From a virus, in the IMG/VR virus record IMGVR_UViG_3300020220_000233, positions 1 to 29,681 of that record: a stretch of DNA of 29,681 nucleotides; one strand, 5' to 3'. Below the pieces are notes generated by a model. That model searched no databases. It was not told the DNA's origin and worked only from the letters and a program-made list of their open reading frames with translations. This document shows positions 9,001-29,681 of this stretch, one piece after another. Made by a program: the position numbers and the translations under genes. The stretch's first letter is position 1. Each line of letters begins with the position of its first letter.

Positions 9001-12000
9001 TGATTTCATCTGCATCATCATCGTATACAACTGTATCTACATTACCAGTCCAAACAGCATTTTCGCGTGGTGGTTTTCCAGCAGGAATTAAAATAATTCC
9101 ACTAGCATTTCCATTTTCATCTGTCTTAATACTTCCATTAAATGCAGATAAAGAATTACCTGCGATACCAGTGTATCTAAAATCGGGATTAACCCATCTT
9201 GCAATATTTCTGCCTTCCATAAAGACGTAAACATTTGTGTTTGGTTTTAGACGATTAATTTTAAACTGAACTGGAATGCTTCTAGCAAAGAATGATAGTG
9301 ATGTAGCAACAACACTAGATCCTACTCCTCTTGTAGTAATTCCTTTTCCAATTTCGTTATTTTCTGGACTGATGTTTGAAGAACTACCAACAGATGCGCT
9401 AGTTACAGTAGAGTCTGCAACATTGGTGTTAACCTCTGCAAAAGATCCAATATTAAAGAATGATCTATTTGCACCAATCCAATTAATCTTGTATGAATTA
9501 TAAAGACTAGAGAATGCATCTCTAATTTCATTCTTGGCAAGGAAAATAGAATATAGGTTGGTATTATTATCTGTTACTAATGGAGCAACTGTAGTATCAT
9601 ACCAAGAATCTGCATTTGGAGCAATAAATGAATCTCCAACATACTGTAAAACAACAAACGGATTTGGATTGATAGTCTTTGTTGCAAATGAATTGCCTAA
9701 TAATTGCAATTCTGTATATGGCAATGTAACACGATCCCCAGTTCTCTGATAACCAGCAACAGATCTTTGATCGTTTCTTGAATTAACTTCAACTAAATCA
9801 AATGAAGATTCTTTTGATTGTGGACGCATAACAGATTGTTGAGTGTCAATTGAACACTTGTAGTCCAAAGAACTCAATGATCCAATCTTGTGTGTCTCAA
9901 AATTATCAACGATAAATCCACTCTTAAAACGGTTGAGTCCAGTAGAATCAACAATTTGCATATTCAATGCTTGTTGCTCTAAAACACTTAGCAAAGTATA
10001 ATATTCCAAACGCTCAATTCTTTTCTCTAGTTTTCCAATATCACGCATGGTATAGCGACGATTGTCAACAGGAGTAATTCTTACATCTTTATTATTCTGT
10101 GTAAATGCTGGAACGTAAATATAATACAAAGGAATTGCATCACTGATTGGATCTGGTTTAGATGGATTGAGAGAAGAATTTCCTTCTTTAATAATAAACT
10201 CCCCTTTCTTATCTAAAAATAAAGCATCAATTCTATCAAGATACTGTGTTTGTGTGAACGAGAAAGTATATTCCAGATTTGAATCTGGTGCTGGTGTACT
10301 TGAAACTACTCCACCAGTTCCAGTGAATGATCTGGTATTTGAAGATGATAATAGAGAATTATTTTGGAATCCAGAAATGATTGAATTATTATCTACTTTT
10401 GGTCTAAAATCAAGAACGTCTTTCAGTGAAACTTTTCCTAGTGCGGGAGAATTGAAAAATGGAATTTCGTCTGGACCAACACCTGCTTCATGTAAATAAG
10501 AATCTACTGTGCAAAAATCTCCTTGAGTATGTTCAAAATAATCAAATGCAATTACAAGTTGACCAGTAGGAGCATCAAATCCAGGTTTCAAGATAATTCT
10601 TGATACATCGTAAATTGTGTCTCTTTGACCGTCATCAAAAGTATAGCGATTAGTAACATCAATACCACTAACAAGATTTCCGTTTCTATCTACAGTTGGT
10701 GGTTCAGAAGGAGATCCTTCATAAACGTATCTTAATTTATAAGCATCAGCAAAACTATAGACATCTAATGCTTCACTATCATAGTCTTTTCCACGGAAAG
10801 GAATAATTTTATCGCCAATAGAATCAATTACAATTCTTTTATTTGCAATTGCTGTTTTTAGTCTTGGTTTTGCTTTAGTTACTTCTAACGTTGCAGTTAG
10901 TTTTAGAGTTGGATATATTCCACCTACAGGAATATTGCCAAAATATGTTGATGGAAGTTGTAAAGTTACGCTACCCGAAGTTAAACCACTCGCAGAATCT
11001 GTTGATGCTTTAATTGAAACTTGATTCTCTGTGATATAAACAATGTCGCCTTCTTTAACAACATTAATTGGAGCATTTCCACGATCAAGAACTGTAACAA
11101 TAAAATTACTTTCGCTAAATGAAACAAATCTCTGAGTTCCAAATGGCAATTGAGCTGCAAATGTAATTACTCCAGCACCGCCAACACCTTTGCTAACAAA
11201 ATCTCTCCTGAGATAGTAAGAAATCCTAGAGTCTTCACTGGATGCTACAATAGAACTTACTTGATTTGTTCCAGTTTTATAAAGCAGAGTTCCCTGATTA
11301 AAGTTACTAATTGATGGACGAACTCTTACTACGCTAGCATTACTTACATCTTGTGGTAAAGATCTATCAAAATAAATTCTTGATTTTAAAACACCTTCTG
11401 GTCTAGTTGCATATTGTACAATACCACGAATAATAGTATCAGTTTTATCTGTAAATTGTACAAGATCTCCCTGCTGTAGATATCTAGTTGAATCTCCACC
11501 AAACCCATTACATTCAATATATTTTCTTCCTCTTTCTCCACTAAAAGTAAATTCTGTTACAGAAGTTACTTCAGCAAATTTTTCTTTATTGATTTCAATA
11601 TCCGAGGTAAAGGTGTTTTCACCACCAGAACCATACTCACAGAAGAATGATTTTACATTTTGTGGAGTAAATGTTGTTACTGCATTTCTAACAAGAACAG
11701 GAGTAATTACTGCTGCTGTTGGTGTGCCACCACCAGTTCCCTGAACTACATTAACAATTGGTGGTCTTGAATATTCGGTACTGACTAATTCTCTGTTGAT
11801 GATTGTAGCTTTAACAATCGCTCCGCTTCCATTTAGATCTAGATCAATCTTTGATGCATCAAATTCAACACCATCAATTCTTAGTAAAGTTCCATTTACA
11901 TAATTTCCACCTCTATTATTAATAATAAAATGTGAAACGGTATTATCTTTAGCAATTCTCAGAGAATTATTCTTTTCATCTCTAATTGCTTCACCCGTCT

Positions 12001-14149
12001 TAAATGTGCCAAAGAGGGTCTTTACCATTAGTGTCTTAGTGCTGCTAAAGAAACCGTTGGAAGAACCCTCTACAACGCCATATGCGCCACTCTCAAGACC
12101 ATATACATACTGTCCTGGTGTGAAACTATCTTGTACGCTAATTGCTTCGTCTAAAAGAATTTTGGTAAAGAATTGAGGATCAAAATATGATAGTCCAAAG
12201 GTAGTATTATAAATGGAACTTCCATTGTCTTTTCTACCTTTTGAAACAATAACATCAGTATCTGGATTAAAACCACTTCCTTTTTCAAGTAAAGTAAAGT
12301 TACTTGGTTTTGCTGTTCCGATAATTGGGGTAACCGTTTCATTATAATCAACAATTGTTCCAAATGGAAGAGATCCTGGTGTTCTAGCAGAAGACTCAGA
12401 TAAAAAGACTTCCCTATATCTGGAAGAAGATCCATCATCATAGTCAACAAAATACTTATCTAGATAATCTTTTCTGCCAGTAATTGTTAACTCTAAGTAA
12501 CTCACGCCAGAAGATGGATTCACTTCAATTCTTCCGACTTTTGAATATGCAATAGATTGCACTGAATTTACAACTGAAGGTTGCCCAGCATCAGTCCTTG
12601 TTTGAATAAACCAAATTGTTCCAAGGACAGATTGAAAATTAGCGTCTGATAAAGTTGAATAAGTATTTGCAAAAGATGGATCTATATTGATATAGATTGT
12701 TTTGATTCCAGAATCAATATCAAAAAATATTCCTCTACGATCAAGAGTTTGTTTTGAATCGTTAGTTCCTTCTTGATTACTTAAACCAATAGATCCATCA
12801 TTAAATGTGGAGCATAAGAAAATATTTGGATATGCAGTTAATTCTGGCGCTTCTGCATTTAATGGAATTGATCCGAATGTATTTGTAATTTTGTAAGTAG
12901 GAAGTCCTTTTGTCTTTAAACGAATATCATCTCTATCAAGAGTTTCCCTTGCTTTATTGATGGGTAAGTATTTGGTTTCCTTATTTACAATTTCAAAACC
13001 TTTGATATATGCTTTACCTGGACCAACACTAGCTACAAGTTTATCTGATGCTTGTTGTAACGTGAATCCATTTATTTTTCCAAATTCGTCAGCAGAATAT
13101 ACGCCCAAATTGCCATTTTTCTGATAGTATTCTCTGATATCCAAAGAGAAATTATCAACAACATAATCACCAGACTCATCATACGTTCTTCTGGCAAGTG
13201 TTTGTTCTAGTAAATTATAATCAGTTTGCGTTACTTGACTTTGAATCGCACCTCTTTTTACAGTAAGAAGTTGAATGAAATTCTTATCAGTGATTTCTTC
13301 TAAAGTATATTTTACTAGATCAAGAAAAATCTTTAATCTGTGTGCTCCTGGAGCGGTGTAATTACTAGATCCAATTGAATTATCATATAAAGAAGCATCT
13401 TCTTCTGGAGTTACGATACTTTCCGTAATTTTGAATCCAATTTTTGCAGATGGTTTATCGTAGTACTTATCAACTACTAGCATCTGTGCTTCATTTCTTA
13501 CAAAATAACCATTTACAAAATAGATACCTTCTTCTACTTTTACAGCAGAAGCATATCCCATTGCTGGACTATCAATAAATGTAGTTTCTTTTGTATCTGG
13601 ATTTGTAATTGAAATTGATGTTGGTAGCACACTACCATCAGTGCCAACAACTAAAAGTGGAGTGTTAATACCATCAACTACTTCCAGAGTCTCTCCTTGT
13701 CTGAAAGTAGTTTCATTTCCAGCATCGCCACTGTTTACATAATTTACAAAAATTACATCTGCAGTCAATTCGGTTGATATCTCTGCTTCTACTACAGAAG
13801 CAACTACTCCAGATGTAAGACCTCTTAACTTTTTATCTTTTAATTCCTTTACATCGTATTTTTTATATACAATCTTACCATTTACATTAACTGGAATTTC
13901 CGAAACGGAAGACAATTTTACAAAATGTAATTTGGTATTAAGACCAACCTCACCAGGGATCACAAGTTCTCCTTGTTTAAAAGCATACTTACCAAATTGC
14001 TCAATCTGATTCTGTAAAACAGATTGCAACTGTGTTAGTTCTCTTGCCTGGATAGAATACCCAGGACGAAACAGTAACTTATAATAATCCTTATCCTGGG
14101 AAAAATCGTCGTAGAAAGGAGCTACGTTTAGATTGGTTTTTTGAGGCAT
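6017..14149 (-). CDS. Giant DUF4815-type virion structural protein (2710 residues)
   Basis: The N-terminus (FYDDFSQDKDYYKLLFRPGY, then QARELTQLQSVLQNQIEQFG) is characteristic of DUF4815 (PF16075), found in marine T4-like phage structural proteins. The first about 1400 residues probably form that family region with insertions. They end in a coiled-coil-like segment, YTMRDIGKLEKRIERLEYYT, near residues 1363-1385. Later parts are beta-rich: an Ig-like stretch around INRLKPNTNVYVFMEG, F-GE-x-V-G modules near residues 665-705, 1855-1885 and 2410-2443, and a GSNYESAIITIESP / GSDYTEAPAVVIRG pair. The final strands end PKVQDLRAVASY. It lies directly after gp8, where T4 has gp9 and gp10, so a role at the baseplate periphery in fibre attachment is a reasonable inference, but no T4 homologue is recognisable. 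The ATG follows the gp8 stop within 30 bases, with GGTG as a weak ribosome site. Confidence 0.8.
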   Translation of the reverse strand: MPQKTNLNVAPFYDDFSQDKDYYKLLFRPGYSIQARELTQLQSVLQNQIEQFGKYAFKQGELVIPGEVGLNTKLHFVKLSSVSEIPVNVNGKIVYKKYDVKELKDKKLRGLTSGVVASVVEAEISTELTADVIFVNYVNSGDAGNETTFRQGETLEVVDGINTPLLVVGTDGSVLPTSISITNPDTKETTFIDSPAMGYASAVKVEEGIYFVNGYFVRNEAQMLVVDKYYDKPSAKIGFKITESIVTPEEDASLYDNSIGSSNYTAPGAHRLKIFLDLVKYTLEEITDKNFIQLLTVKRGAIQSQVTQTDYNLLEQTLARRTYDESGDYVVDNFSLDIREYYQKNGNLGVYSADEFGKINGFTLQQASDKLVASVGPGKAYIKGFEIVNKETKYLPINKARETLDRDDIRLKTKGLPTYKITNTFGSIPLNAEAPELTAYPNIFLCSTFNDGSIGLSNQEGTNDSKQTLDRRGIFFDIDSGIKTIYINIDPSFANTYSTLSDANFQSVLGTIWFIQTRTDAGQPSVVNSVQSIAYSKVGRIEVNPSSGVSYLELTITGRKDYLDKYFVDYDDGSSSRYREVFLSESSARTPGSLPFGTIVDYNETVTPIIGTAKPSNFTLLEKGSGFNPDTDVIVSKGRKDNGSSIYNTTFGLSYFDPQFFTKILLDEAISVQDSFTPGQYVYGLESGAYGVVEGSSNGFFSSTKTLMVKTLFGTFKTGEAIRDEKNNSLRIAKDNTVSHFIINNRGGNYVNGTLLRIDGVEFDASKIDLDLNGSGAIVKATIINRELVSTEYSRPPIVNVVQGTGGGTPTAAVITPVLVRNAVTTFTPQNVKSFFCEYGSGGENTFTSDIEINKEKFAEVTSVTEFTFSGERGRKYIECNGFGGDSTRYLQQGDLVQFTDKTDTIIRGIVQYATRPEGVLKSRIYFDRSLPQDVSNASVVRVRPSISNFNQGTLLYKTGTNQVSSIVASSEDSRISYYLRRDFVSKGVGGAGVITFAAQLPFGTQRFVSFSESNFIVTVLDRGNAPINVVKEGDIVYITENQVSIKASTDSASGLTSGSVTLQLPSTYFGNIPVGGIYPTLKLTATLEVTKAKPRLKTAIANKRIVIDSIGDKIIPFRGKDYDSEALDVYSFADAYKLRYVYEGSPSEPPTVDRNGNLVSGIDVTNRYTFDDGQRDTIYDVSRIILKPGFDAPTGQLVIAFDYFEHTQGDFCTVDSYLHEAGVGPDEIPFFNSPALGKVSLKDVLDFRPKVDNNSIISGFQNNSLLSSSNTRSFTGTGGVVSSTPAPDSNLEYTFSFTQTQYLDRIDALFLDKKGEFIIKEGNSSLNPSKPDPISDAIPLYYIYVPAFTQNNKDVRITPVDNRRYTMRDIGKLEKRIERLEYYTLLSVLEQQALNMQIVDSTGLNRFKSGFIVDNFETHKIGSLSSLDYKCSIDTQQSVMRPQSKESSFDLVEVNSRNDQRSVAGYQRTGDRVTLPYTELQLLGNSFATKTINPNPFVVLQYVGDSFIAPNADSWYDTTVAPLVTDNNTNLYSIFLAKNEIRDAFSSLYNSYKINWIGANRSFFNIGSFAEVNTNVADSTVTSASVGSSSNISPENNEIGKGITTRGVGSSVVATSLSFFARSIPVQFKINRLKPNTNVYVFMEGRNIARWVNPDFRYTGIAGNSLSAFNGSIKTDENGNASGIILIPAGKPPRENAVWTGNVDTVVYDDDADEIRFTTGIKTIRFTSSSTDQIKDVVETYAEVKYYATGLLPENPASIVSTTPAFFKANEGTQITGSNTENPIKPNPLAQTFTVSGFTGGLFTTGVDLFFSQKSSNIPIRVYLTDVQNGKPGKNIIPGTQQVVSPNTYLRVVASDTLTIKKGEKVTGGTSNASGPISKLFDKNNIEVTPSTTGVFTLTSDQVYTLVLDNYNGKFFKQDETLTVPSLTTYNNAQNTNLILKITKNSGRVTDLRVKNTGSNYESAIITIESPQLPGGGNATATLRVSRGKVYYSELVLSGSDYTEAPAVVIRGTGAGNAGAEIESVITIDTPAVRMGIAVDETGVTRSITPTKFTFDYPVYLQNDTEYALVIETDSIDYLLWASKLGEIEIATNTTVTTQPALGSLFKSQNTDAWTEDLFEDIKFRLYRAEFDTTRTASLLLTNQNLGYERLSIDPIETNAGSNTTATSTLFKNNNFVVKVNHPDNGFDSDGKSYVFFRGVKDVGGVTASQLNSDLFKATNTGIDYYNITSSNRASANSFGGGSTILASYNRKYEKIHAIVPNLSFSQTKIDSFVKTTNISPVDDNVKTFTSYSQSDYEKTFLNEDFFFINQKVLASRVNETINNINRSLTYKLDFSSSVSYLSPMIDLSRSSIKVISNRVENASGMESRFGRRNQILEFYPVYTFLVDGVNTQGGELISNNQKITGLTTKASGQIVKVQGVTVFVKLKTTNSFTPGEVLQFENNTFNTPPTVAFSGVSQVTFQIPNTVSPPTYVTARNPSVPAATYTNKITGKIVLWNQKSGQLTVINDKQPINDDYVSAIVEGADFTRNASVDFQDNDIFRVGDLISYPNQPPTEQKFIEVSKVSYSDGADFISDKQSKNSSSIAKYVTKEIAIENPATAIDVRTTINTSDIQNIKVLYRIKKSSSQENFEDIEWEYFNETGIPDTDIVASSENAISGITEKQSSYQELTYSVDNLPEFSSFAIKIVMKSSNPAFVPKVQDLRAVASY

Positions 14150-15983: not shown

Positions 15984-15991
15984 TATTTATA
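15984..15991 (-). promoter_or_regulatory. T4-type late promoter, upstream copy overlapping a stop codon
   Basis: A second exact TATAAATA on the minus strand lies ten bases upstream of the first, about one helical turn. It contains the TAA stop codon (15987-15989) of the 3365-residue gene. The two cores could give alternative start sites for gp8, or one may be a sequence by-product of the other. Confidence 0.55.
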
Positions 15992-18900
15992 GGGCGTTTC
16001 TTAAGTAGTCTCCCAAAGCATGAAACTCAATAGGTGTTCCATTTACTCCACGTGTACAATTTAAGAAACGATCACTCAACTTGCTGGTATAAGAAATTTG
16101 TTCTTTGCCAACCAAAATAGTTCCAGATGATGGGAATTTTGATGTATTAGCATAGATAACAGCATTTGTTGCAAGATATCCAGGATTACCTATCGCGGGG
16201 ATGTCATCAGTTTCCACCATTGATAAGTAGTAATTTATTGATGGATATGCAAGATTAAATAGATTTCCTGTTGATATAATATTTGAACCTGCGTAATTAT
16301 CAAAATCTCCAACAGTAAATCCATTCATAATAAAATCTTCAATGGTTATTGCAGAAACTGGTGTTCCTCCAGTAGAGAGAATATTACCAGTATCCATAAA
16401 CTTTGCATTTTCCCATTGTGCAAATGACGGACCTAAAGTTCCACTTGCCAAGTTTGTTGAGAAACTTAATCCGCGATGGTCAACAAATCCAACATAGTGA
16501 TTGAACATTCTCTCAACTGTTGCTAGTAAAAGGGGTTGAGATTCTACAGTTCTATCAATATAATATTGTCTTAGCATGTAAGAATCACTTTGATTTGTTG
16601 GAGAAGAAACTTGACCAATACTTGCTGGACGAATATATAAAACTTCTTTGGATACAGAAAGAGGAGAAAGATCAATTTCTCTATTTAAAGTAATTACACA
16701 ATTTGCACTAGAAGATGGAGAAACGGAAGTTATGAATGAATAAACGGTCTCAATTCCTCTAGAAAATTCAACAATTAAATTTGTTGCTACTGGAGATTGT
16801 TGTATAATTTGAGTTCCAACTGTCAGTTGAATAAAACTATCAATTTTTCTTCCTCTTTGCTTGATAATATCATACTGCCTTGCAGTAACAACTCTTGGTG
16901 GTTTTGTGTATCCAGATCCAGAATCAGTGATGACAATATCAATTATTTGTCCACGAGAAACAATAACTTCTGCTCTAGCTCCACCACCATTCTGATCTAC
17001 GGGTATGAAATGTAAAATTGGTGTTGTCTCATATCCATATGCAGTTGTTGGTTGAATAATACCAGTATTATATAAAAGCTGTAAATCTTTTTTATTCCAA
17101 GTAATTTTATTAACTTTTCCTGCTTGAATACTGCAAGTAACGCTCAATCCAACACCAGTAGTTTCTCCATTATAATTGCTTGTAACAACAGACCCAAAAA
17201 AGTCATTTGATACATCTTGGGATGGATTATAATTTTTTGGATTTACATATTGTGGCAGTTCTTTAATGTCTCTGTATTGGTTTTCGCCATCAATTTTGAT
17301 AATATCACCAGCATTTAGATTTGCTAATAAACGCTTCTTTTCATAAAAGGAGATATCTGCTTCTTTTGTATCATACAACCATGTAGCAGAATTTCTCTGC
17401 ATCTTATAATCATTCTCTTCATCTCTAACAACAGTAATACTATTTGTAGTAAATACTAACTCATACTCATCTGAGAAGTCATCTTCTGCAGCAAAGAATA
17501 TTGTTGAATTGACTAATTGTGGATTACCACCAGCAAGTGTAATCACAAGTTTATTGGATGTTTTGTAATATGATTTTACATTGCCAATAAATCTTTTCGT
17601 TCCACTAATTTTTTGATATGCAACTTGGAACTTATCATATGATGTATTATACCAAGTTTCCCAATCAACAAAGGAATTGGGAGAACCAGCATCGCATGTC
17701 AGGATTAATTTGTTATAGTAAGTATTCCTTTCAAAGTCATATAAAGTAATAGTCTGCTCAATATCTCTTCCATATAAAAGAATAATTTCAATATTATTCT
17801 CTGAAAAAATATCTCTAGTAAAAGTAATTGCTGGACCATTAATTTGATAAGAGTCTCCTTCTCGTTGTAAAGTACCATCAATAAACACCAATACAAAATT
17901 GCCGTCATCAATGGTTTTCACTTTCTTATCTTTGGAGTTTAAGATTAGGAAAGGACCTGGAGATCCGTCAAGAATACCAGATTTATCAATTTCACAACGG
18001 ATATAGTTTCCTATCGTATGTGCAAAGAATTTTTCTACTGCTAAAGGTTCTTGAACTAATTTTACATTTTCTTCTTGCCCCCAAATTGGTGGAGATGAGA
18101 ATACAATTTTATTGGGAATTGATGATCTATCAATATAATATGCAGAATCGTGTTGTAATATTCCACTCAATCCAACAAAAAGATTCTCATTTAAATCTGT
18201 TTGAACTGGAGAACCATCAGAATAATATAAATCAAAAATTGTATTCTCCCCATTAATATAATCTGGATATGAAACTTCTACAGTCCCTGGTCCAGTTACT
18301 AAAGTTTGTCTAATCACATCATATAGAGAATCTAAAGCAGAAGCAACATCTTCACATTCAGTAAATGTGTTATATCTCAATCCAATATCACGAATCAGAT
18401 CAATATTTGAGTATGACCTTAAGGTAGTCCAATATCCAGTTGAATTTGGATTTTGTGGAATTACATCAATTCTATCTGGTCCTCCTTCTAATGTATCTTC
18501 AACAATCTGTGCATATGTGTTTATTGCACTTTCAACTTGAGCACATAATGGAGATACAGTATCCAATCTAACATTTGGATCTGTTACAGGAGCAATAATT
18601 GTGATGCCACTAATTTGATTTAGCATTGCATCAATCATCAGTAAAGCTGCCTGGTTGTAGGCGTAAATTGATTCTGACAATTCACCAGCAATATGTACAC
18701 GTTGATTGTTTACAAAATATGAATTTGCAAATTTAATTACTTTTTCATTGCCACCATAACGTAGTGAATATACAACCGCATCAACAAATAAACCAATGTC
18801 ACGTAGACATAAATCTTCTGTTTTTACCCAAGAAGTGATTCCAGTATTTTTTGTAATGTTTGGTTTTTGGTTGTTTTGGATTGCTGTAGTTAGAATACCA

Positions 18901-21900
18901 AACAATGAAGTAATTGCAGAATTTACATTTGAACATTCTGGAACGCTAGTAATATTTGGATCAATAACCGCTCCTAAATTATTAACTGCAGCAATACACA
19001 AATCTCTTGCAAAATTAAACGCATGAATTGATTCCGTTCTTTCCCCATCAAGAGCATCATGGAAATCAAAATATGCGTTAGTAACTTCAATAGTAGCTGA
19101 GTTTCCACCACGAGCCACATCTTCGGCAATTGCTACTAGAATAATTTTCAAATCTCTTTCACATGATGATGTCGCATACTGAGTGCCGAATTCGTTTTCT
19201 ATCTCAACCAAAGTATCCAATACAATATCATCAAGATTCTTATAAATTAACCTCCTAGCATCTTTAAATCTATATGCTTCTTCTGGGACTCCTGGATAAA
19301 TGAATCCAGGGAATTCTTCATAAATTCTATAAGCTGCTTCTCTTTGAATATTAATTTTATTGGCAATAATAAGATCTGCAGCATCTATATATGTACCAGT
19401 ATTTGAACCGCTCCATAAGAATGTTACAACGGCATTATCAGAAATTGTGAGTCCACTTGCTGGAGTAATAGCATAATAATTTCCAGGAGAAATCTGTAAA
19501 AATATTCCTGGAGCAATTTGGATAATTGCAGCAGTAGTATCTACACTTGATGCGGGAGTTGTGTTAGTTGTTATAGTTTGAGCAGAAGAACTTGATAGTG
19601 GAATTGCGTTTTTACTCAGTTTTAATCTTGTGCTATCAAGAATTTCTGTAATGATAGTATCAGAACTAAATGCTCTCCCAGCACTAATTCTCATACCAAT
19701 AGCAACATTTCTTGTATCACCAATTTCAATGATGTTTGTTCCTGGAGTCCAAGATGCTCCTGGTTCTACAACATCCCAATTTCTCATTGCTAGTTTGCAT
19801 AGACGAACAGCATATCCAAATGCTTCAATGGTTGCATCAACTTCATCTCCATCAATATAACTTAATGTTCCAAAATTGAAATATTTTTCTATTGATAGAA
19901 TGGTTTTTTCGTTTCCTCCAAACCTTAAATCATGTGCCAAAGCATCAATGATGTAACCAATATCTCTAGAACATTTTGAACCAAGAGTATTCCACGTTAA
20001 AGATGGATATTTTGATTTGATATAACCAAGAGTTTCTGCTTGAATAAATGCTCTATTAAACTCAAGTTGATTTGCGGAATCTATCCATCTTCCATTTCTC
20101 TGGAAAATATTTCTAATTTTCTTTAAGTATCTTTGATTTAATGTTGGATTTTTAAATTCAAATAATCTACCATAGAATCTTACTCCAGGAGCAATCTGCC
20201 CATCTTCAATGGACTGACCAAGAGGTGGATTTTTAAACGTAATTTTATCGCCAGAAACAGTATATGCAGTCCCTGGTTCTTGAATTATGCCGTCAAGAGT
20301 AATAATTAGTGCTTGTGAATTATATGGATTTACAGAATTGCCATTTACGTCAACAATATTAAATGTAGTAGTTCCTTCAAGATTTCCTTTATCTGTAAAT
20401 GCACCGTCAAATGGAGCATTTAGATAAACTCTTTTAGCACGAATTTCTGATGTATTTGCACTGTCAACAGAAACTGATCCAACTCCTTTTTCAACATTTA
20501 ATGATTTTGTAGCAATAATACTCTGAGTAATTTTTCTCTTTGTATTAATTACGGTAACTTTATTTTTATTGGGATCCCACAATTGGACAATACTTGTTTT
20601 TGTAGATTTTGTGTTGGCACTCATTCTATTTTGAGCACCAGACTCAATCAGAACCTCTCCAAACAACTGGAATCCAGCTGGATGAGTAGTTTGCTTTATG
20701 AGAGATCTCCACAAATCAATTGGAGTTTTTGATTTTACCGTATATGAATAGTCTTGATAATAATATGAGTCAGAGATTCTTTGATTTGCGTCACTAATTT
20801 TTCCATAATCTGATTGATAATATCCCATATTATCAAAATAAGTTTTGATAATAGGAGAAAACTGCGTATAATCAATGGATTGTAGTTTCGCAGTTTTGTT
20901 ATTTGACAATCCAATGATTTGCTTTCCTTCACGGAGAATTCCTTGAACTCTATCAACAATAAGAATATTTGATCCATTTCTCCAAGAAGTTACTCGTGCT
21001 CTAGCAACTTCAACATTTCCAGATCTTTGAATAATAGTTTCACCAACAATAAAAGCATCTGTAGCAAAATCTGAAACTACTAGTATATAATTTGATCTAA
21101 ATGAAGATTTTAATGTTAGATCCTTGTGATAAGCACCGCCATTATTAATTAATTTAATATTTCTTGGAATACCAATGTTTTTACTATTCAAATAACATTT
21201 AATATCTGACTCTGCAATTTTAATATCTGGAATCTCTGTATAACCAGTTCCAGAATTTTTAATTAAAATCCCAGTAATTTTACCAGCATCAGCAACTGCT
21301 GTTAAAACTGCATTACCAGAAACGATAACTACAGGTTTGGAATAATTTTTTCCTGTCTCAGTTACTACAACTCCAGTGATTCTTCCATCTTGAATAGTAC
21401 ATTCTGCAACTGCAGCATATTCTGCAGATGGAACTACGCCAGTAACAATTGGAATTTTTTTGTAATCACTACCAATATTTGTAATTCTAACCGAATTTAT
21501 TTTTCCAATGGAGAAAATAGATTCCGATACATATGAAATTTGTCCACTTCCATCATGTGGAGCTGCGAATAATGTTTCATATACAATTTTATTTGATGTT
21601 ACATATAATGCAATTTTTTTTCCTTGCAGCGGATCATCAACTACATTTAGATAAGATTTTTCCGAATTGATTTTATTATTCTTATCATAATAAAAATACT
21701 TACTAAATGGAATATCAACTTTATTTTGATATGTGTTTGATGAGATTCTAGGACCAAAACCAACTTTTACACTGATGATATTTCCAACAGATACTTTCTC
21801 TGGAGTTACTAAATTTAAATTGATACTTGGAGAAAGATCAAAACGAACATCACTCATTGATGGATGAGAAATATCAAAATTATATTTGTAGTATTTTTTA

Positions 21901-24900
21901 ATATCAATTACTTTATTTCTAACAAAATTTATATTATTAGAAGAAAATTCAAAATATCTTTCTGGTTTGGTGATTGAAGAAATTGTAACAAGTCTTTTAT
22001 CAACACTCTGATCAAAGAAAACAGAATCTTTAATTAAAGAACTAATTGTAGTGAGTGTTTGTGAATAATTATATACAAAAACAATTTTTTGTGTAGTTGG
22101 ATCATATGATAGTACAATAGGATCGTCAGAACCAGAACCAAGTTGATATCCAGGAGAAATATTATATCCTGGATCATAAATTGAAACAACTGCACCATCA
22201 AAATGATCTACTGCTGTAGTTCCTTTCTGAGATCTTTCTACAACAAATGTATTATTTGTTCTTGACAATACCTTTACAATTTCATCATTGATTTTTAAAT
22301 AATCTCCAATTGTGATACCGATATAACTATCAAGAGTTAGTTTTGAATTTTGTAAAGAAAATCCGACGTGATCAACACTCAACTTTAATGATGGAGTTGT
22401 AGAATTAGTTTTATTGAGAGCAACATTGCCAACTGTAAGAACATCAAATTTATTATATCCAAATCCTTTATCACTGATCGTAACACTTGTGACGGAACCT
22501 TGAGAAGAAACAACAATAGTTGCTTTTGCATTAGTTCCATTACCACCAACAAGAGCAATATTTGAATAAGATCCTGCAGTATAATTTTCACCTCCATTTA
22601 AAATTGCAACTCTTCCAACACCAGTGTCTTTTAAGACTCTACTTACTCCTGGTGCTTGCAATGTTGCTTCTTGATAGATGCGGGTTCTTACATAATACGT
22701 TGATGTTGTTGTAGCATCATTTGGATTGATATCAATCGTAATTTGTTCGTCTAATCCAACTCCATGATCATCCGAAGTTGTTAGTAATGCTACACTATCA
22801 TTCAAATTAAAAATAATTAAATCGTTACTTAATGAGTTTAAAGATACAATTTTTGATCCTGGGGTGTTAATTAAATCAGAACTAGTTAAGAATAATGTAT
22901 CAGATACAATAAAATTTCCAGAAAGAACTTTTACTTTTACTGTATTTTGTGCTGTTGTCCCTTCCAAGACTTTGCCAGTTGCTACAGCAGCATTAATGCC
23001 ATTACTTAAAGATAATATAGCACCTTTTGTGTATGATGAATTTTGATCTAAAATTAACGATAATACTTTTGTATTTGAAGACAATACATCACTTGAATTA
23101 AACGTTCCAGAAACGTTTCTAAGGGCAACCTTTGTCCCAGAGAATACATCTCCAACAATTTTTCCAGAGGCACCTGTTAGCGCCTGTGTGAGTGTATCTC
23201 CATCAAACAAATAAGCAGTAGTAACTAGATCAAATAAAACAACTTTACTATCTTCAGATTCAATTGAAAGAACTTGTCTGCCACTAACAGAAGAAACCTC
23301 TGCTTTTGCACCAAATCCATCTGTCTGTGTGTCGTTTATAATAACTTCCGAACCAACAGAAAAATTATTCACGCTATCTAAAACAGTTGCAGATATTACG
23401 TTTCCTCTATTAACATCTTCAATTATTGCATGAGAAAGATCACCATTTTTATCAATACCACTTGTTCTAAGTCTGTTAGCATCAACAGGCAAGTCATCTT
23501 GAGAAATACTGGAGTTATAATTTGAATCTAAAGGTAATGAGTAATAATTTTGTCCAATAATATAAGGGAATACTGGATTATTTGATGCGTCAACTGTGAT
23601 AAAATATGCATAAGTTCCCTGTGGATATTCTGGAGTTACACAATATCTTCCGTTATTTTGATCTAATGATCCATAACCTTCAATATAATTATAATCATCA
23701 ACAAATGTTCCAATTGGATAAATTGCTGTGCTCGGACCAATATTTCTGCTGATATTCTTAGAATAACTTGATGTCATTCTAACAATTGGACTTGTTAAAA
23801 CAAGAGGATTGTTATAACCATATGGACCATAAATTGGATTGCCATCATATGCAAATCCAATAATCGGGGAGTGCGAAGATCCAGTATCAGTAGAACGCAA
23901 AGCAGATGGAGATGCATAATATGCATATCCGTATCCTAGTGTATTAACAAAATTTTTGAAGAAATAACCATTGTTTGAATCTAATTGAGATTTAAATTTT
24001 TTGTATTTGTCTTTTACCCAGGATTTAATTTCTGCAACTGCTTCTGCTCCAGAACCAATAGCAATAAGATCAACCGAAACATTTTCTTGTGTATAAAGAC
24101 TTCCACCTTTTATTTTTTCAAAACCGACTACTTTTCCTTCGTTAGAAATGATAGTCTTAAAATCTGCAAATCTTCCTTTGCCAGCTGCATCGGTAATTTT
24201 AACTTCTGGAGGAGAAGAATAATATTCTCCAGGATTATTTACAACAATACTAGTAATTTCACCATTAGTTACAACTGCCGTTGCAGTAGCATTTCTGCCA
24301 GATGTGATCTCTACAGTTGGGATTTGACCATAATTACCAGTATCATCAACAATAATAGATTCAACAACTTGTCCCGCTAACTTTGTTCTTACTAATCCAC
24401 TTACATTATTAATTAAAACATATGGACCTTTTTGGTATCCAGAACCTCGGTTTAAGACTTTAATTTTTTGTATGGCACCATTGTAAACAACATCACTATC
24501 TTTATAACTTAGAAGTGGAATACCATTAATTGCAATGCCAACATCTCTATTACCAGTTTCATAAATTTCTGTAGTAGAAATTGCATTCTTTCTAATAATT
24601 CTCAATAACTTTTGATCCTCAATATCTTGAGGAATCGTAGCAGTCAGAGGAATAATATCATGAGAAGGGAATCCAGATGATGTTATGTAATAACCTTCAC
24701 CATCTTCAAAAATTGCCGATACATTTGAATTTAATTTTGAAATTGCTGCAGAAACACTTGGATGATTGGAAGATCCTGGAGGAGATGAACTTGTGATCCA
24801 TCTTAGATTATTTTGAGAATCAAAAATTTTAGGATCTGTTGTGATAAATCCAGGTTCCGAAATCTGCAAAATTTCTCCTGGATTTGAATATGGTGAACCA

Positions 24901-26084
24901 TATTGATTCTCTAATGCATATAGAACACCATATACTAATAATGATATACCATTACTAGAAACATTAGCTCCATATGTAACAGAAGATCCAATTGGATGTA
25001 CAAGAGATCCCGATCTAGATTTAATAATAAATTGATTTACATTTTTCTCTTCAAATGTAAACTTTTCCGAACTGATATAAAATTCTCCTTTTGAATCCCA
25101 TCCCATTGTTGAGAATACATTAATTCTATCTCCAATAGAATCAAATTGAGATACCTCTTTTGTTAGTTTGGTTTTAGAAGCGATGGAAAATGAACCATTT
25201 ACACTTTGTTCAGCAAGAATTAATTCATATAAATCTTCACCATTAAACTTACCAACATATTTTACATTATCAACTACAGCAGAAGCATAAGAACCATCAA
25301 CATTTTGCTTGATTGTTCTCCCAATCAAGTTTAATGGATTTCCAGATAAAATTTTGACTTTTAATGAATATACATTGGTCCACTTAGATTCAGATGCCTT
25401 TAATGTAAAATCTCTAGGATATTTTACTTCTGGTTCTAGATCATTATCAATTAAACATTTAAATAAAAATTTAATTGAACTATCAGTACCCTTTGACTGA
25501 TAGAATGATGTAATATTTTTAATTAAAACTCGTTTGTCAACATCTGATTTTAGATATGCTTCTGGGAAGTCGCTTAGATATTGTTTCTCAAAACTTTTAA
25601 CTAAGGCATATAAAAATAAATTGCTAATGTTTTGTACAACTGATCCATTTAGATGATTTGATGCCTGTGTGGTTACAAATGTACTTTCACTGTAAAGATC
25701 TCCCAGTTTTGTATTTCCACTAATACCACGACTTACTTCTAGGAATTGTGTATCTGTACGTTGCTTATAAAAACAAATTTCATTATCAATTTGAATATAT
25801 CCACCGTTCTTGGGAAATGAAGTTGCATCAAGAACTGTGATTGTGTCATCAGATGATTGTAATGATCCTGCTAATTTTGTAGACTGTGTGAGAATATTTT
25901 TTTCATAAAAATCAATATCACAATAAGTCTGAATATTTGTAATAATATCCAGCGGATTACCCTGAATTTCTAACTGCTCATAGTATTTTTGTACGAATCT
26001 TGTAAAGAGTTCGTACTCTTCGTTGATAAAGTCTGGTAATTGTGATTCAACCAGAAATGAAATTTTGTTAGCAGTTTTCAGCAT
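15987..26084 (-). CDS. Giant baseplate wedge protein in gp7 position (3365 residues)
   Basis: By position between gp6 and gp8 this is the counterpart of T4 gp7 (1032 residues, the wedge initiator), but I see no sequence match, so gp7 is not assigned. Parts in order: a helical N-terminus (FINEEYELFTRFVQKYYEQL); an FP-x-x-G-x-I-x-I-x-x-E / SRG--GN module at 79-130; glycine-tyrosine strand repeats (GSGYQKGPYVLI, GNYGQIPTVEI, GEYYSSPPEVKI) at about 538-690; a YHYH-like domain at about 725-850 (HSPIIGFAYDGNPIYGPYGY); more such repeats near 1155-1220 and 1528-1658; a second RG--GT module near 1245-1306; three helical repeats (C-RDIG--IDA---DLR-GGNEK) at about 2030-2495; and a C-terminal RGVNGT module. 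The ATG is five bases after the gp6 stop. A single uninterrupted frame argues against frameshift decay. Confidence 0.8.
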   Translation of the reverse strand: MLKTANKISFLVESQLPDFINEEYELFTRFVQKYYEQLEIQGNPLDIITNIQTYCDIDFYEKNILTQSTKLAGSLQSSDDTITVLDATSFPKNGGYIQIDNEICFYKQRTDTQFLEVSRGISGNTKLGDLYSESTFVTTQASNHLNGSVVQNISNLFLYALVKSFEKQYLSDFPEAYLKSDVDKRVLIKNITSFYQSKGTDSSIKFLFKCLIDNDLEPEVKYPRDFTLKASESKWTNVYSLKVKILSGNPLNLIGRTIKQNVDGSYASAVVDNVKYVGKFNGEDLYELILAEQSVNGSFSIASKTKLTKEVSQFDSIGDRINVFSTMGWDSKGEFYISSEKFTFEEKNVNQFIIKSRSGSLVHPIGSSVTYGANVSSNGISLLVYGVLYALENQYGSPYSNPGEILQISEPGFITTDPKIFDSQNNLRWITSSSPPGSSNHPSVSAAISKLNSNVSAIFEDGEGYYITSSGFPSHDIIPLTATIPQDIEDQKLLRIIRKNAISTTEIYETGNRDVGIAINGIPLLSYKDSDVVYNGAIQKIKVLNRGSGYQKGPYVLINNVSGLVRTKLAGQVVESIIVDDTGNYGQIPTVEITSGRNATATAVVTNGEITSIVVNNPGEYYSSPPEVKITDAAGKGRFADFKTIISNEGKVVGFEKIKGGSLYTQENVSVDLIAIGSGAEAVAEIKSWVKDKYKKFKSQLDSNNGYFFKNFVNTLGYGYAYYASPSALRSTDTGSSHSPIIGFAYDGNPIYGPYGYNNPLVLTSPIVRMTSSYSKNISRNIGPSTAIYPIGTFVDDYNYIEGYGSLDQNNGRYCVTPEYPQGTYAYFITVDASNNPVFPYIIGQNYYSLPLDSNYNSSISQDDLPVDANRLRTSGIDKNGDLSHAIIEDVNRGNVISATVLDSVNNFSVGSEVIINDTQTDGFGAKAEVSSVSGRQVLSIESEDSKVVLFDLVTTAYLFDGDTLTQALTGASGKIVGDVFSGTKVALRNVSGTFNSSDVLSSNTKVLSLILDQNSSYTKGAILSLSNGINAAVATGKVLEGTTAQNTVKVKVLSGNFIVSDTLFLTSSDLINTPGSKIVSLNSLSNDLIIFNLNDSVALLTTSDDHGVGLDEQITIDINPNDATTTSTYYVRTRIYQEATLQAPGVSRVLKDTGVGRVAILNGGENYTAGSYSNIALVGGNGTNAKATIVVSSQGSVTSVTISDKGFGYNKFDVLTVGNVALNKTNSTTPSLKLSVDHVGFSLQNSKLTLDSYIGITIGDYLKINDEIVKVLSRTNNTFVVERSQKGTTAVDHFDGAVVSIYDPGYNISPGYQLGSGSDDPIVLSYDPTTQKIVFVYNYSQTLTTISSLIKDSVFFDQSVDKRLVTISSITKPERYFEFSSNNINFVRNKVIDIKKYYKYNFDISHPSMSDVRFDLSPSINLNLVTPEKVSVGNIISVKVGFGPRISSNTYQNKVDIPFSKYFYYDKNNKINSEKSYLNVVDDPLQGKKIALYVTSNKIVYETLFAAPHDGSGQISYVSESIFSIGKINSVRITNIGSDYKKIPIVTGVVPSAEYAAVAECTIQDGRITGVVVTETGKNYSKPVVIVSGNAVLTAVADAGKITGILIKNSGTGYTEIPDIKIAESDIKCYLNSKNIGIPRNIKLINNGGAYHKDLTLKSSFRSNYILVVSDFATDAFIVGETIIQRSGNVEVARARVTSWRNGSNILIVDRVQGILREGKQIIGLSNNKTAKLQSIDYTQFSPIIKTYFDNMGYYQSDYGKISDANQRISDSYYYQDYSYTVKSKTPIDLWRSLIKQTTHPAGFQLFGEVLIESGAQNRMSANTKSTKTSIVQLWDPNKNKVTVINTKRKITQSIIATKSLNVEKGVGSVSVDSANTSEIRAKRVYLNAPFDGAFTDKGNLEGTTTFNIVDVNGNSVNPYNSQALIITLDGIIQEPGTAYTVSGDKITFKNPPLGQSIEDGQIAPGVRFYGRLFEFKNPTLNQRYLKKIRNIFQRNGRWIDSANQLEFNRAFIQAETLGYIKSKYPSLTWNTLGSKCSRDIGYIIDALAHDLRFGGNEKTILSIEKYFNFGTLSYIDGDEVDATIEAFGYAVRLCKLAMRNWDVVEPGASWTPGTNIIEIGDTRNVAIGMRISAGRAFSSDTIITEILDSTRLKLSKNAIPLSSSSAQTITTNTTPASSVDTTAAIIQIAPGIFLQISPGNYYAITPASGLTISDNAVVTFLWSGSNTGTYIDAADLIIANKINIQREAAYRIYEEFPGFIYPGVPEEAYRFKDARRLIYKNLDDIVLDTLVEIENEFGTQYATSSCERDLKIILVAIAEDVARGGNSATIEVTNAYFDFHDALDGERTESIHAFNFARDLCIAAVNNLGAVIDPNITSVPECSNVNSAITSLFGILTTAIQNNQKPNITKNTGITSWVKTEDLCLRDIGLFVDAVVYSLRYGGNEKVIKFANSYFVNNQRVHIAGELSESIYAYNQAALLMIDAMLNQISGITIIAPVTDPNVRLDTVSPLCAQVESAINTYAQIVEDTLEGGPDRIDVIPQNPNSTGYWTTLRSYSNIDLIRDIGLRYNTFTECEDVASALDSLYDVIRQTLVTGPGTVEVSYPDYINGENTIFDLYYSDGSPVQTDLNENLFVGLSGILQHDSAYYIDRSSIPNKIVFSSPPIWGQEENVKLVQEPLAVEKFFAHTIGNYIRCEIDKSGILDGSPGPFLILNSKDKKVKTIDDGNFVLVFIDGTLQREGDSYQINGPAITFTRDIFSENNIEIILLYGRDIEQTITLYDFERNTYYNKLILTCDAGSPNSFVDWETWYNTSYDKFQVAYQKISGTKRFIGNVKSYYKTSNKLVITLAGGNPQLVNSTIFFAAEDDFSDEYELVFTTNSITVVRDEENDYKMQRNSATWLYDTKEADISFYEKKRLLANLNAGDIIKIDGENQYRDIKELPQYVNPKNYNPSQDVSNDFFGSVVTSNYNGETTGVGLSVTCSIQAGKVNKITWNKKDLQLLYNTGIIQPTTAYGYETTPILHFIPVDQNGGGARAEVIVSRGQIIDIVITDSGSGYTKPPRVVTARQYDIIKQRGRKIDSFIQLTVGTQIIQQSPVATNLIVEFSRGIETVYSFITSVSPSSSANCVITLNREIDLSPLSVSKEVLYIRPASIGQVSSPTNQSDSYMLRQYYIDRTVESQPLLLATVERMFNHYVGFVDHRGLSFSTNLASGTLGPSFAQWENAKFMDTGNILSTGGTPVSAITIEDFIMNGFTVGDFDNYAGSNIISTGNLFNLAYPSINYYLSMVETDDIPAIGNPGYLATNAVIYANTSKFPSSGTILVGKEQISYTSKLSDRFLNCTRGVNGTPIEFHALGDYLRNAL
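18600..19995 (-). repeat. Three repeated helical domains inside the giant wedge protein (coding)
   Basis: Three diverged copies share the pattern C-x-RD(I/L)G-x-x-(I/V)DA followed by R-GGN and then a Y-x-A---C/M stretch. Copy 1 (about 19770-19995) has CSRDIGYIIDALAHDLRFGG. Copy 2 (about 18960-19170) has CERDLKIILVAIAEDVARGG. Copy 3 (about 18600-18820) has CLRDIGLFVDAVVYSLRYGG. A degenerate remnant, LIRDIGLRYNTF, follows near 18370-18400. They are similar at the protein level rather than the DNA level, so they are old duplications. Confidence 0.75.
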
Positions 26085-26089
26085 CTAAA

Positions 26090-27892
26090 CTACTCTTTGT
26101 ATGCTATGAATTTACTCTTTGATATATCTACGTCAAGATATACCTCGCGCTTAACCTCAATGTCTCTATTAGCTGGTTTTACTCTCAATTCAATACGATT
26201 GTCTGAAAAACTGCCTTTTAAGATTGTGAGATTGTACATCTTAATTTCACCTTTTACATAATCAACATCACCAATTGAATCATTCAATAGAATTTTTTCA
26301 CCAGTCACAGAATCTAGTCTATATAGGACGATTTTGCCATTCCTATCTTCCAAATAACTTGTAAACTCTGGATATTCAAAAACAGTCATTTCAGTTGAAG
26401 AAACAACAGGATTATCACAATCTTCTAGAAATGCATTTTGATAACAGATCTCATAATATGCTGAAGAATTAATCTGTGCGTAGAAATCTTTTCTCATCGT
26501 GATATCTGTACTGTTTGAATTGATAGCACGATCAGATCCGTCAATCACAGCAACAAATTTACTGTATCTAAATTTACCATTAAATTTTTCTGTTTCTGAT
26601 GTTTTGAGATATTCTTCAATTCCAGTTGCAACTTTTGCTGCCATTTGTGCAGGAATTGATTTTGTTTTACTTTCATCGTAATAAATGGAAGTATCCAACT
26701 CAATGTATAAAATTGAAGGATCAATAAACTCTGGTCTAATTGAAGCAACGGTATATTTCTTTAATTCGTCTGAAAGTTGATTTTTTGTAAATGATGACAG
26801 TGCTGCCGCTTCAACTGGTTTTACAGCAATAAAAACTTTCCCATACTGGGGTGGTTCTTGATCTTCTCCACCAAATACAATAATATCTCCAACTGCGGGG
26901 TATAAGTTTCTAATAATTGCTGCATAGTCATTAGATGTCACTGCTCTGTTCTGTGATCCATAGAACTTAGGAGCATTGAATTTAATTTTCTCAATAGATT
27001 CAATATCTGCACCACCAGATGCAATCTGGGTAGTTGTTAGTTTTGTAATATTAAATGGTAACAATAATGAATTATCATCTTGATCATTAAGGACTCCACC
27101 AAAAGTAAAAGTTTTGGCGCCGTTTGTTACTGGTCCATTTGTAATTATATAAGTCAATTCAACAAATTGACCATTTGTTAATTTTTTACCTAAAACTCCA
27201 TCACCAAAGAAAATTTCGTATTTCTCATCTTCAATTTCATTGATAAAGTAAATTTCATCATTACTACCAACTTCTAAAATATTTGATACTGGTGTATAGT
27301 CTTTGTATATAGTAGATGCTGCAGATTGGTAAACTCTAACTCTCAGAGTACTAATATCAACTGAAGGGTTCTCAATTAAAAATCTTTGTGACTTGAGCGA
27401 TGCATTAACAACAAACCTATTTGTTACAAGAGCTCCTTCATACAAATTCAAATTTGAGAATTTTGCAACTCCGTTGATAACATCACTTCTTCTATCCTCT
27501 TTTAGAATGAAGCGATACAAAGTACCATCGTAATTTGTAATAAATCCACTTCCAGCTCTGAATTTAACAGATGATGGTGCTGTACTGTTAAATGTAATTT
27601 CAAAATCAACTGATGCTCTTGGAGATGTAATTGACTTTGGTGTGTATCCTAATTGCTTTGCCAGTGCCACCACGTTGTCTCTTAAAGTGGCAGAATCCAA
27701 GAACATCTCATTCACTACCATATTGGTATTGAATGCAGTATAATAAGTATTATATGCCAATACATCAAGCAATTGACTTAGAGCAGATCCTTCAAAGTCA
27801 TAGTCAGTAAAATCTGACTGCGCTCTCATATAATCTTTGAGAGTTGTCTTAATCTGATTAAAATCTAAGTTGTTTAATTGAGCGTATGGCAT
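26090..27892 (-). CDS. 6: Baseplate wedge subunit gp6
   Basis: The N-terminal region matches T4 gp6: T4 has NGQNEFLDYDFEGSRLNVLCD and LLAYNTLY, and here the sequence is RAQSDFTDYDFEGSALSQLL followed by DVLAYNTYY. The next block, TLRDNVVALAKQLGYTPKS, parallels T4 NLRSSVVQAAQDNGYLPTS, and IFFGDGVLGKKL parallels T4 FYFGEGEIS. The length of 600 residues is near the 660 of T4. Gp6 forms the ring that joins wedges around the hub and belongs to the baseplate J-like superfamily. It overlaps gp25 by one base (TAATG), and AGGA seven bases upstream gives a good ribosome site. In T4 gp25 and gp6 are direct partners in the wedge core, which fits the coupling. Confidence 0.93.
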   Translation of the reverse strand: MPYAQLNNLDFNQIKTTLKDYMRAQSDFTDYDFEGSALSQLLDVLAYNTYYTAFNTNMVVNEMFLDSATLRDNVVALAKQLGYTPKSITSPRASVDFEITFNSTAPSSVKFRAGSGFITNYDGTLYRFILKEDRRSDVINGVAKFSNLNLYEGALVTNRFVVNASLKSQRFLIENPSVDISTLRVRVYQSAASTIYKDYTPVSNILEVGSNDEIYFINEIEDEKYEIFFGDGVLGKKLTNGQFVELTYIITNGPVTNGAKTFTFGGVLNDQDDNSLLLPFNITKLTTTQIASGGADIESIEKIKFNAPKFYGSQNRAVTSNDYAAIIRNLYPAVGDIIVFGGEDQEPPQYGKVFIAVKPVEAAALSSFTKNQLSDELKKYTVASIRPEFIDPSILYIELDTSIYYDESKTKSIPAQMAAKVATGIEEYLKTSETEKFNGKFRYSKFVAVIDGSDRAINSNSTDITMRKDFYAQINSSAYYEICYQNAFLEDCDNPVVSSTEMTVFEYPEFTSYLEDRNGKIVLYRLDSVTGEKILLNDSIGDVDYVKGEIKMYNLTILKGSFSDNRIELRVKPANRDIEVKREVYLDVDISKSKFIAYKE

Positions 27893-28287
27893 TATCTCGT
27901 CCTAGAAAGGAAGAATTCTACATTTATGGGTGGTCTATCAGAACCAATAATTTCATACACCATTTCAACATCAAATCCATTGTCATCAAAGTTTGGTATC
28001 ACATCAATAGATAACACAGAAATTCTTGGTTCGTAATTTGCAAGAGTTAAAGAAATATTTCTGGATAAAATACCAGCAGTTGCATAATCTAATGGTTCAA
28101 ACAAATATGATCTGATATCTGACCCAAATTCTGGATTGAATAATTTCTCACCCTTATTCATTAATAAAATATTAACAATTGCCTGTTTAATGGCAGAAGC
28201 ATCCTTACTGACAACAAGATCATCAGTAACAGGATGCTTCTTAAAACTAATATTGATATCTCTAAAGGAGAGATTTGACGTTGCCAT
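27892..28287 (-). CDS. 25: Baseplate wedge subunit gp25
   Basis: This 131-residue protein is almost the length of T4 gp25 (132). It carries the two signature blocks: KGEKLFNPEFGSDIRSYLFE (T4: KGSRPFDPEFGCDLSDQLFE) and NYEPRISVLSIDVIP (T4: NYEPRIDKLAVNVIP). Gp25 is part of the wedge core with gp6 and gp53 and belongs to the gp25/GPW-like baseplate family; it is structural, despite the old lysozyme label given to the family. No clear Shine-Dalgarno precedes the ATG. A small hairpin (28302-28321) lies 14 bases upstream, so its translation signal is unusual. It is the first of the recognised wedge genes in this direction and runs straight into gp6. Confidence 0.95.
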   Translation of the reverse strand: MATSNLSFRDINISFKKHPVTDDLVVSKDASAIKQAIVNILLMNKGEKLFNPEFGSDIRSYLFEPLDYATAGILSRNISLTLANYEPRISVLSIDVIPNFDDNGFDVEMVYEIIGSDRPPINVEFFLSRTR

Positions 28288-28779: not shown

Positions 28780-29253
28780 TTAAGGTTTTGGTACGTTTAC
28801 AATTCCGAGTGCTGTTCTAACACCTATAAGTATTTTAGGGCTTTGCCCAATTCCTGTCAAGGGTCTATCATTTAATGCATAAATTGCTGGTTCTGTTCCA
28901 ATTGGTGCTGGAATTCCTCCCACATTTACTGCTGGAGGTGCGGTAACAGCATCTCCTATGACTGCAACCAACTTCTTCTCAAAGAAGACAGTTTTGTTTT
29001 GATAAGGAGTAATCAGTTTACGTGGCAGAAAACCAATGGGAGGACATGGTGGTGTAGGTGCTCGTAATGCTCCAGTTACATCTGCAGCTACTATAGGTAC
29101 TCCACCACTTGGATAAAACTTTAAAGGTGTCGTTCCTAATTTGATTGTTGCAGCAGGAAATGGAGTGCCCCCTAAAGGTGCAGGAGAATATATGAAACAC
29201 ACATCCTGCGATATTGTGTCAATTGTTGCTTCTCCTGCAATTGTTCCAATCAT
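28780..29253 (-). CDS. Possible PAAR-like baseplate spike-tip protein
   Basis: This 157-residue protein is rich in Pro, Gly, Val and Ile. It has short beta repeats separated by PxG turns, with FYPSGGVPIVAADVTG, VFFEKKLVAVIGDAVTAPPA and VNVGGIPAPIGTEPAIYALN. The VF--KKLVAVIGD-VTAP stretch and the repeated short strands resemble PAAR-repeat proteins, which cap the spike of contractile tails. The match is by pattern, and the expected metal-binding His/Cys set is not visible, so an alternative is an unrelated beta-rich baseplate protein. It overlaps the 71-residue gene by ATGA, and AAGGA nine bases before the ATG supports the start. Position just upstream of gp25 and gp6 fits a hub or spike component. 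Confidence 0.55.
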   Translation of the reverse strand: MIGTIAGEATIDTISQDVCFIYSPAPLGGTPFPAATIKLGTTPLKFYPSGGVPIVAADVTGALRAPTPPCPPIGFLPRKLITPYQNKTVFFEKKLVAVIGDAVTAPPAVNVGGIPAPIGTEPAIYALNDRPLTGIGQSPKILIGVRTALGIVNVPKP

Positions 29254-29465
29254 GCTTTTATATCCTTCTGAATACTATCTATTCTTTTATATAAATCATC
29301 TAGAGCTTCATTCAACTTCATGTAACTCTGGGACTGGGGGGGCTTGTACATCAATTGGGGGCGTTCTAACGATGACACCTTCCTCTCCACCATCGTCAAT
29401 CTCTCGGACAGCGATTGGAGTAACTCGTTGAATTTCTGCATTGTCAATTGGTTGTCTTGAGTCAT
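29250..29465 (-). CDS. Small coiled-coil protein, overlapping the upstream gene
   Basis: This 71-residue protein has two heptad-like helices: LQSLSERLTMVERKVSSLE (about residues 16-34) and LNEALDDLYKRIDSIQKDI (about residues 50-68), joined by a proline-containing linker (RPQLMYKPPQSQSY). It probably forms a helical hairpin or oligomer. The stop is fused to the next start (ATGA), and an AGGA lies seven bases before the ATG at 29465, both supporting a real gene. The unusual point is that its first about 52 codons overlap the 3' end of the 90-residue gene in another frame. Possible roles are an assembly chaperone or a baseplate linker; none can be shown. A shorter form starting at the internal ATG at codon 49 (about 23 residues) is less likely because it has less support. 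Confidence 0.65.
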   Translation of the reverse strand: MTQDNQLTMQKFNELLQSLSERLTMVERKVSSLERPQLMYKPPQSQSYMKLNEALDDLYKRIDSIQKDIKA

Positions 29466-29580
29466 TATCTAATCCTGCAAAACGTCTTGCTGCTGCTGAT
29501 TCAAATTGATCGCAAAATGTATCAAAATTTTGCAAAACCTTTTCATAGAAACCTGGATCTTGCTCGTAGTGATTCATCAT
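29308..29580 (-). CDS. Small acidic protein, 90 residues, unknown function
   Basis: I do not recognise the family. The N-terminal half is helical (MNHYEQDPGFYEKVLQNFDTF, then CDQFESAAARRFAG). The C-terminal half is acidic and proline-rich (IDDGGEEGVIVRTPPIDVQAPPVPELHEVE). The first ATG overlaps the TGA of the upstream partial gene (ATGATGA), and GGA lies five bases before the second ATG, so either Met may be used. Its last 158 bases overlap the 71-residue gene in a different frame. Both proteins look natural in composition, which argues against one being a simple shadow, but only conservation analysis can settle it. It belongs to the tight translational chain leading to the 157-residue and 49-residue genes. 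Confidence 0.6.
   Translation of the reverse strand: MMNHYEQDPGFYEKVLQNFDTFCDQFESAAARRFAGLDNDSRQPIDNAEIQRVTPIAVREIDDGGEEGVIVRTPPIDVQAPPVPELHEVE
29473..29476 (-). promoter_or_regulatory. Ribosome binding site inside the 90-residue gene
   Basis: AGGA on the minus strand lies seven bases before the ATG at 29465. It supports that internal ATG as the true start of the 71-residue coiled-coil protein and therefore supports the out-of-frame overlap. Confidence 0.55.
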
Positions 29581-29681
29581 TGTCCGCGAATTGATGGAAT
29601 TTCATTAGAAACAGAGTTATCTGGAAATCTCACATTAATATCAAGTTCTATGACTTTTTCTTCAAGTGCAATGACTCTTTG
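29577..29681 (-). CDS. 3' end of an unidentified gene
   Basis: An open frame enters from the window edge and ends in TGA at 29577-29579, giving 34 residues: a helical part with heptad spacing (QRVIALEEKVIELDI) and a tail SNEIPSIRGQ. The stop overlaps the next start (ATGATGA). The gene body lies outside the window, so its identity cannot be given. The compact overlap and same strand place it in the same late cluster. Confidence 0.6.
   Translation of the reverse strand, partial: QRVIALEEKVIELDINVRFPDNSVSNEIPSIRGQ

Follow-up and report, generated by a model that had tools for sequence, protein, structure and literature searches.

The Rz/Rz1 spanin pair of phage lambda consists of two small phage proteins encoded in overlapping frames of the same strand, with an internal start. 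The locus described here, in which two genes (referred to as A and B) overlap, resembles Rz/Rz1 in each of these respects. However, it is not part of a lysis cassette, its gene B is widespread without A, and neither protein has a transmembrane segment or a lipobox (the highest 19-residue hydropathy is 0.38 for A and 0.11 for B, and no lipobox pattern was found in either), so that an identity as spanins of the Rz/Rz1 type is rejected.

Both proteins fall into described families. B belongs to PHROG 699 (profile match with an E-value of 2e-14 over residues 2-69), which corresponds to T4-GC 393 in Syn33, P-SSM7 and P-SSM4, and it also occupies the place typical of this family, ahead of the structural module. 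In the members of PHROG 699 examined that lack A, B begins beyond the end of the preceding gene or shares with it no more than a few to about 23 nt, whereas the 5' two thirds of B are shared with A in the present sequence. A belongs to PHROG 10663 (E-value = 1.5e-15, residues 11-80), the record of which is silent on the C-terminal half being encoded over another gene. PHROG 699 was matched by all 67 aligned B proteins, and PHROG 10663 by all 68 aligned A proteins. PHROG 11480 was also considered, as a family of short A-like proteins free of the overlap, and was discarded: it matches a 25-residue helix only, yields no such gene and has matches in six of 14 unrelated control genomes. No report of the A/B pair was found in the literature on gene overlaps or on ribosome profiling in cyanophages, and the searches brought up neither expression nor proteomic data for it.

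The sequence analysed is the whole of the virus record IMGVR_UViG_3300020220_000233 (29,681 bases, positions 1 to 29,681), hereafter called the window. Comparison with its relatives makes it very probable that one stretch of its DNA specifies two separate small proteins, of which B would be old and A a younger overprint. B would be an old coiled-coil protein of cyanophages with its own start codon inside gene A, and A a younger protein of a single cyanophage clade. Of protein A, the N-terminal helix would come from sequence ahead of B, and the acidic, probably disordered tail from the 5' end of B, read in the frame one base behind that of B.

The gene pair in the window and its relatives

A preliminary description had proposed that 158 bases code in two frames of the same strand, and the position of the overlap is confirmed here, the two minus-strand ORFs being out of frame with each other (Table 1). 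The B frame is one base ahead of A; seen from B, A occupies the -1 frame. From its first ATG (29580), ORF A extends over 29308-29580 of the minus strand and has 90 aa. The fusion of this start to the upstream stop, CAATGATGAAT, is present in the sequence as described; the first ATG is not kept in close relatives, and the second (29577) is. The reported junction of the B stop with the next start is likewise present.

Table 1. Features of the A/B locus (window coordinates)
Feature	Position	Strand	Remarks
Gene A (PHROG 10663)	29308..29577	-	89 aa from the conserved ATG; predicted N-terminal helix and acidic disordered tail
Gene B (PHROG 699)	29250..29465	-	71 aa; two predicted helices with a YKP linker between them
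A/B overlap	29308..29465	-	158 nt; B read in +1 with respect to A, both frames showing purifying selection
AGGA	29473..29476	-	8-11 nt before the ATG of B, within A codons; modest ribosome-binding site
TAG stop in the B frame	29469..29471	-	two codons ahead of the ATG of B
Next gene, 157 aa (PHROG 11361)	28780..29253	-	outside the overlap; start fused to the stop of B (ATGA)
gp25 baseplate wedge gene	27892..28287	-	context marker
gp6 baseplate wedge gene	26090..27892	-	source of the phage tree

Downstream of A and B follow, in this order, the 157-aa gene, a 49-aa gene, a 72-aa gene, gp25 and gp6, and from this position beside gp25 and gp6 we infer that A and B act in baseplate or tail assembly. 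The gp6 protein of the window is 57-61% identical to those of the A-bearing Synechococcus phages examined. The 157-aa gene has no Pfam match; because the PAAR motif is matched, in several A-bearing relatives, by genes that follow B, it may encode a diverged spike-tip protein in a similar place. After gp6 lie two very large minus-strand genes (6017-14149 and 15987-26084; 2710 and 3365 aa), and the gene after gp6 in relatives is annotated as a large structural protein. On the upstream side, the 12 bases before the A start (window 29577-29590) differ almost completely from those of two relatives (L006:584-596 and L008:437-449) even though A and B of these relatives are 97-100% identical to those of the window, and the upstream neighbor may therefore have been exchanged recently. 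The slot before B also changes its occupant between lineages (L078 2820-2990, L081 1793-1957, L093 839-1474). Syn33 and S-CAM22, both B-only phages, have a small MazE/AbrB-like protein there, and S-WAM1 has a 2OG-Fe(II) oxygenase.

Searches of named phages with tblastn recovered B in 183 records with the window query and in 222 with a distant member, nearly all bearing cyanophage names, and A in 25 records with the window query and again in 25 with a distant A query. When the loci from these searches and from four IMG/VR scans were pooled, A and B occurred together in 146, always in the same +1 overlap, and B occurred alone in 68; no locus contained A only. In this large group of marine cyanophages the doubly read stretch amounts to about 140-180 bases, nearly all loci lying within 122-182 nt, and it persists even where the A proteins of two phages are no more than about 35-40% identical.

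B is omitted or truncated in the annotations of all nine A-bearing phages examined: A is listed and B missing in S-B43, S-RSM4, S-WAM2, S-H9-1, Sf-CH1b and ACG-2014h, and B is cut to 38 residues in S-CAM4, ACG-2014e and ACG-2014i. B does appear in the annotations of those B-only phages that were examined. Several cyanophage genome annotations thus drop or shorten a gene that is annotated in full in other cyanophages. One of these genomes, that of Synechococcus phage S-B43 (MN018232.1, 214 kb), contains two gp6 genes, at 129437-131230 (L220) and 47948-49783 (L239). The two copies share 58% and 40% identity with the window gp6 and come from different clades, one grouping with the A-bearing clade and the other with S-T4 and ACG-2014f; the record may be a mixed assembly, or the phage may have two baseplate sets, an unusual arrangement.

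Predicted proteins and the start of B

AlphaFold2 models were built from the IMG/VR loci. The B model has two helices, at residues 3-34 and 51-70 (mean pLDDT 82.8). That of A has a single one (residues 10-33), located outside the overlap. No structure was predicted for the overlap-encoded half of A (pLDDT about 52-61), which has a net charge of -8 and contains seven prolines. The earlier contrast between a coiled coil (B) and an acidic tail containing prolines (A) holds. Comparison of B with solved structures and a viral fold library returned generic coiled coils and cyanophage proteins, none with an E-value of 0.001 or less in the fold library, and comparison of A with solved structures gave nothing of note.

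The AGGA ribosome site previously noted before B is indeed present, but its pairing with the 16S tail is weak in the window's group, in which equally strong pairing is seen at 35% of the control positions nearby; in the window itself the site is weaker evidence than had been supposed. The site is strong in the sister A-bearing group, only 0.7% of the controls being equally so. All 32 ungapped sequences from the window's group retain the ATG of B, and 23 of these 32 have a B-frame stop three or fewer codons upstream of it, as the window itself does. Because of these two features, it is more likely that B is made by separate internal initiation than by frameshifting. A and B could also be thought of as one protein produced by +1 frameshifting from A into B, since the B frame of the second group is usually open upstream of the ATG; this has hardly any probability in view of the upstream stops and the conserved ATG in the window's group, and of the existence of B as a free-standing gene in the B-only phages, and it is rejected. 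With internal initiation as the favored route, we infer from conservation that both A and B are translated.

Selection in the two frames

Substitutions in the overlap were sorted, with a counting scheme for overlapping genes, by whether they change A, B, both proteins or neither one. In the B frame, dNN/dNS was about 0.2-0.4 overall and 0.21-0.26 by this scheme, indicating purifying selection. In the A frame, this scheme gave a dNN/dSN of 0.36-0.41 for the window's group, as compared with about 3 for the B-only control. With independent pairs (each sequence used once), which correct only partly for the uneven group sizes and the relatedness of sequences within groups, the A-frame ratio was 0.61 (0.45-0.75) in the window's group, 0.83 (0.65-1.05) in the second A-bearing group and 2.40 (1.72-3.90) in the same columns of B-only genomes, and none of 2000 paired bootstraps reached the B-only control value. 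Judged alone, the second group lies only marginally below 1, and all of its pairs with 25% divergence or less gave a ratio of 1.06; constraint on A in this group is recognized from the contrast with the B-only genomes. The synonymous rate of A falls from 0.418 per site before the overlap to 0.128 within it.

The A frame of the B-only genomes is interrupted by stops in all 53 sequences (mean 4.5). In A-bearing sequences, four to five would be expected from the B protein alone. None was seen before A's own stop in the 146 A-bearing loci, the chance of an open A frame over the overlap being about 0.0015-0.003 per sequence (given the B protein and phage codon usage). Four residues of A encoded in the overlap, T53, P54, E59 and V77, are invariant over 36 homologues, and P54 and E59 are still invariant over 68.

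These results bear on the possibility that B is the sole functional gene in the overlap, the function of A being confined to its N-terminal helix and the tail being a passive run-on. In favor of this, the tail of A is predicted to be disordered, the position of the A stop varies between loci, from which the wide range of overlap lengths results, and in sliding windows over the window's group A is constrained across the overlap except in the last one (1.15). However, a passive tail is improbable, since B-only genomes have, in matching columns, an A-frame ratio about 3-7 times as high, the expected stops are absent and the overlap contains invariant A residues.

In short, amino-acid conservation is found in both frames when synonymous constraint is measured in each across the overlap, as the preliminary description had suggested should be done, and its statement that both genes have support is upheld, with weaker selection on A in the second group. 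Neither of the outcomes that it considered fatal was encountered: the A frame is free of stops in A-bearing relatives, and B does not start only after the overlap, its N-terminal part being coding and homologous to A-less B.

Relative age of the genes and comparison with other overlaps

In distribution, one frame appears older than the other, B being found without A (68 loci) and A never without B. The overlap-encoded part of B (up to YKP) aligned with B of phages lacking A with an HHalign probability of 94% (E-value = 1.1e-7, 38 columns). Among 13 B-only phage genomes searched for A, 12 had no match with an E-value of 1 or less and one had a match of 0.03 over 19 positions; in the same search all nine A-bearing control genomes matched, with E-values of 6.4e-28 or less. 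In the gp6 tree, the root of which sits on one long branch, the A-bearing phages constitute one clade (100/100) that is sister to S-T4 and ACG-2014f, and the B-only phages constitute another. A was not found in S-T4, ACG-2014f, a Methylophilales phage or CC31, and neither was B, for which ten positive controls matched.

The overprinting of one gene on the other, as proposed earlier, thus holds, and the direction, which had been left open, is now indicated by evidence favoring A as the newcomer. Most likely, to judge from these sequences, A was gained once in its clade and its tail was written over the 5' end of B; a single origin is favored because the overlapped part of B is homologous to A-less B and the A-bearing phages form one clade in the gp6 tree. 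Codon choice points the other way: in the overlap, A is nearer to phage usage than B in 97 of 97 sequences, and by the usual rule A would therefore be the older gene. However, ordinary genes read in an arbitrary -1 frame have the same codon score as A, by which the rule is confounded here, and the score of B is depressed because its third positions are the first positions of A. Within the overlap, GC at B third positions reaches 0.67, as compared with 0.45 for B-only genomes and 0.19 for the remaining window genes, the high value being the footprint of A first positions. Codon usage was accordingly rejected as a clock for the older frame in +1 overlaps.

Apart from codon choice, the history with both genes ancestral and a later loss of A from the B-only lineages (or with an origin of B over A) draws on the fact that a single gp6 split parts the A-bearing from the B-only phages, so that the position of the root matters. 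We nevertheless hold it to be unlikely. The overlapped part of B is common to the B-only phages, and B therefore cannot have originated over A inside the A clade; the sister group of that clade (S-T4 and ACG-2014f) has no detectable A, and loss would therefore require two events as against one gain. For the gain of A, a tentative scenario, which we would put at somewhat below even chances, is that overprinting took place once, at the base of the clade, and made out of the -1 frame of the conserved coiled-coil gene a truly new protein part, the disordered acidic tail of a new protein of the baseplate region, which has been under selection throughout the clade since, perhaps through binding of A to B. 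That the two proteins bind each other is a guess.

According to surveys, +1 is the commonest type of same-strand overlap once overlaps of 1 and 4 nt are set aside (PMC8903798, PMC7017920). The median +1 overlap in a survey of virus genomes is 14 nt (interquartile range 8-26; PMC8903798), and the longest overlap common across genera within a family was reported as 112 nt (PMC7017920). The A/B overlap is on the same strand, as are those of other dsDNA viruses, but in nearly all loci it is longer than the last figure, a comparison that is only rough because the criteria differ. Overprinted gene pairs on one strand are a known kind in tailed phages, and the A/B pair is a new, well-controlled case, for which the evolutionary evidence is unusually good because relatives without A serve as the control. 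Since the older gene occurs by itself in many relatives, the cost of a second frame and the constraint that it imposes can be measured at the same codons, and the pair thus provides, for a tailed phage, a natural control of overprinting.
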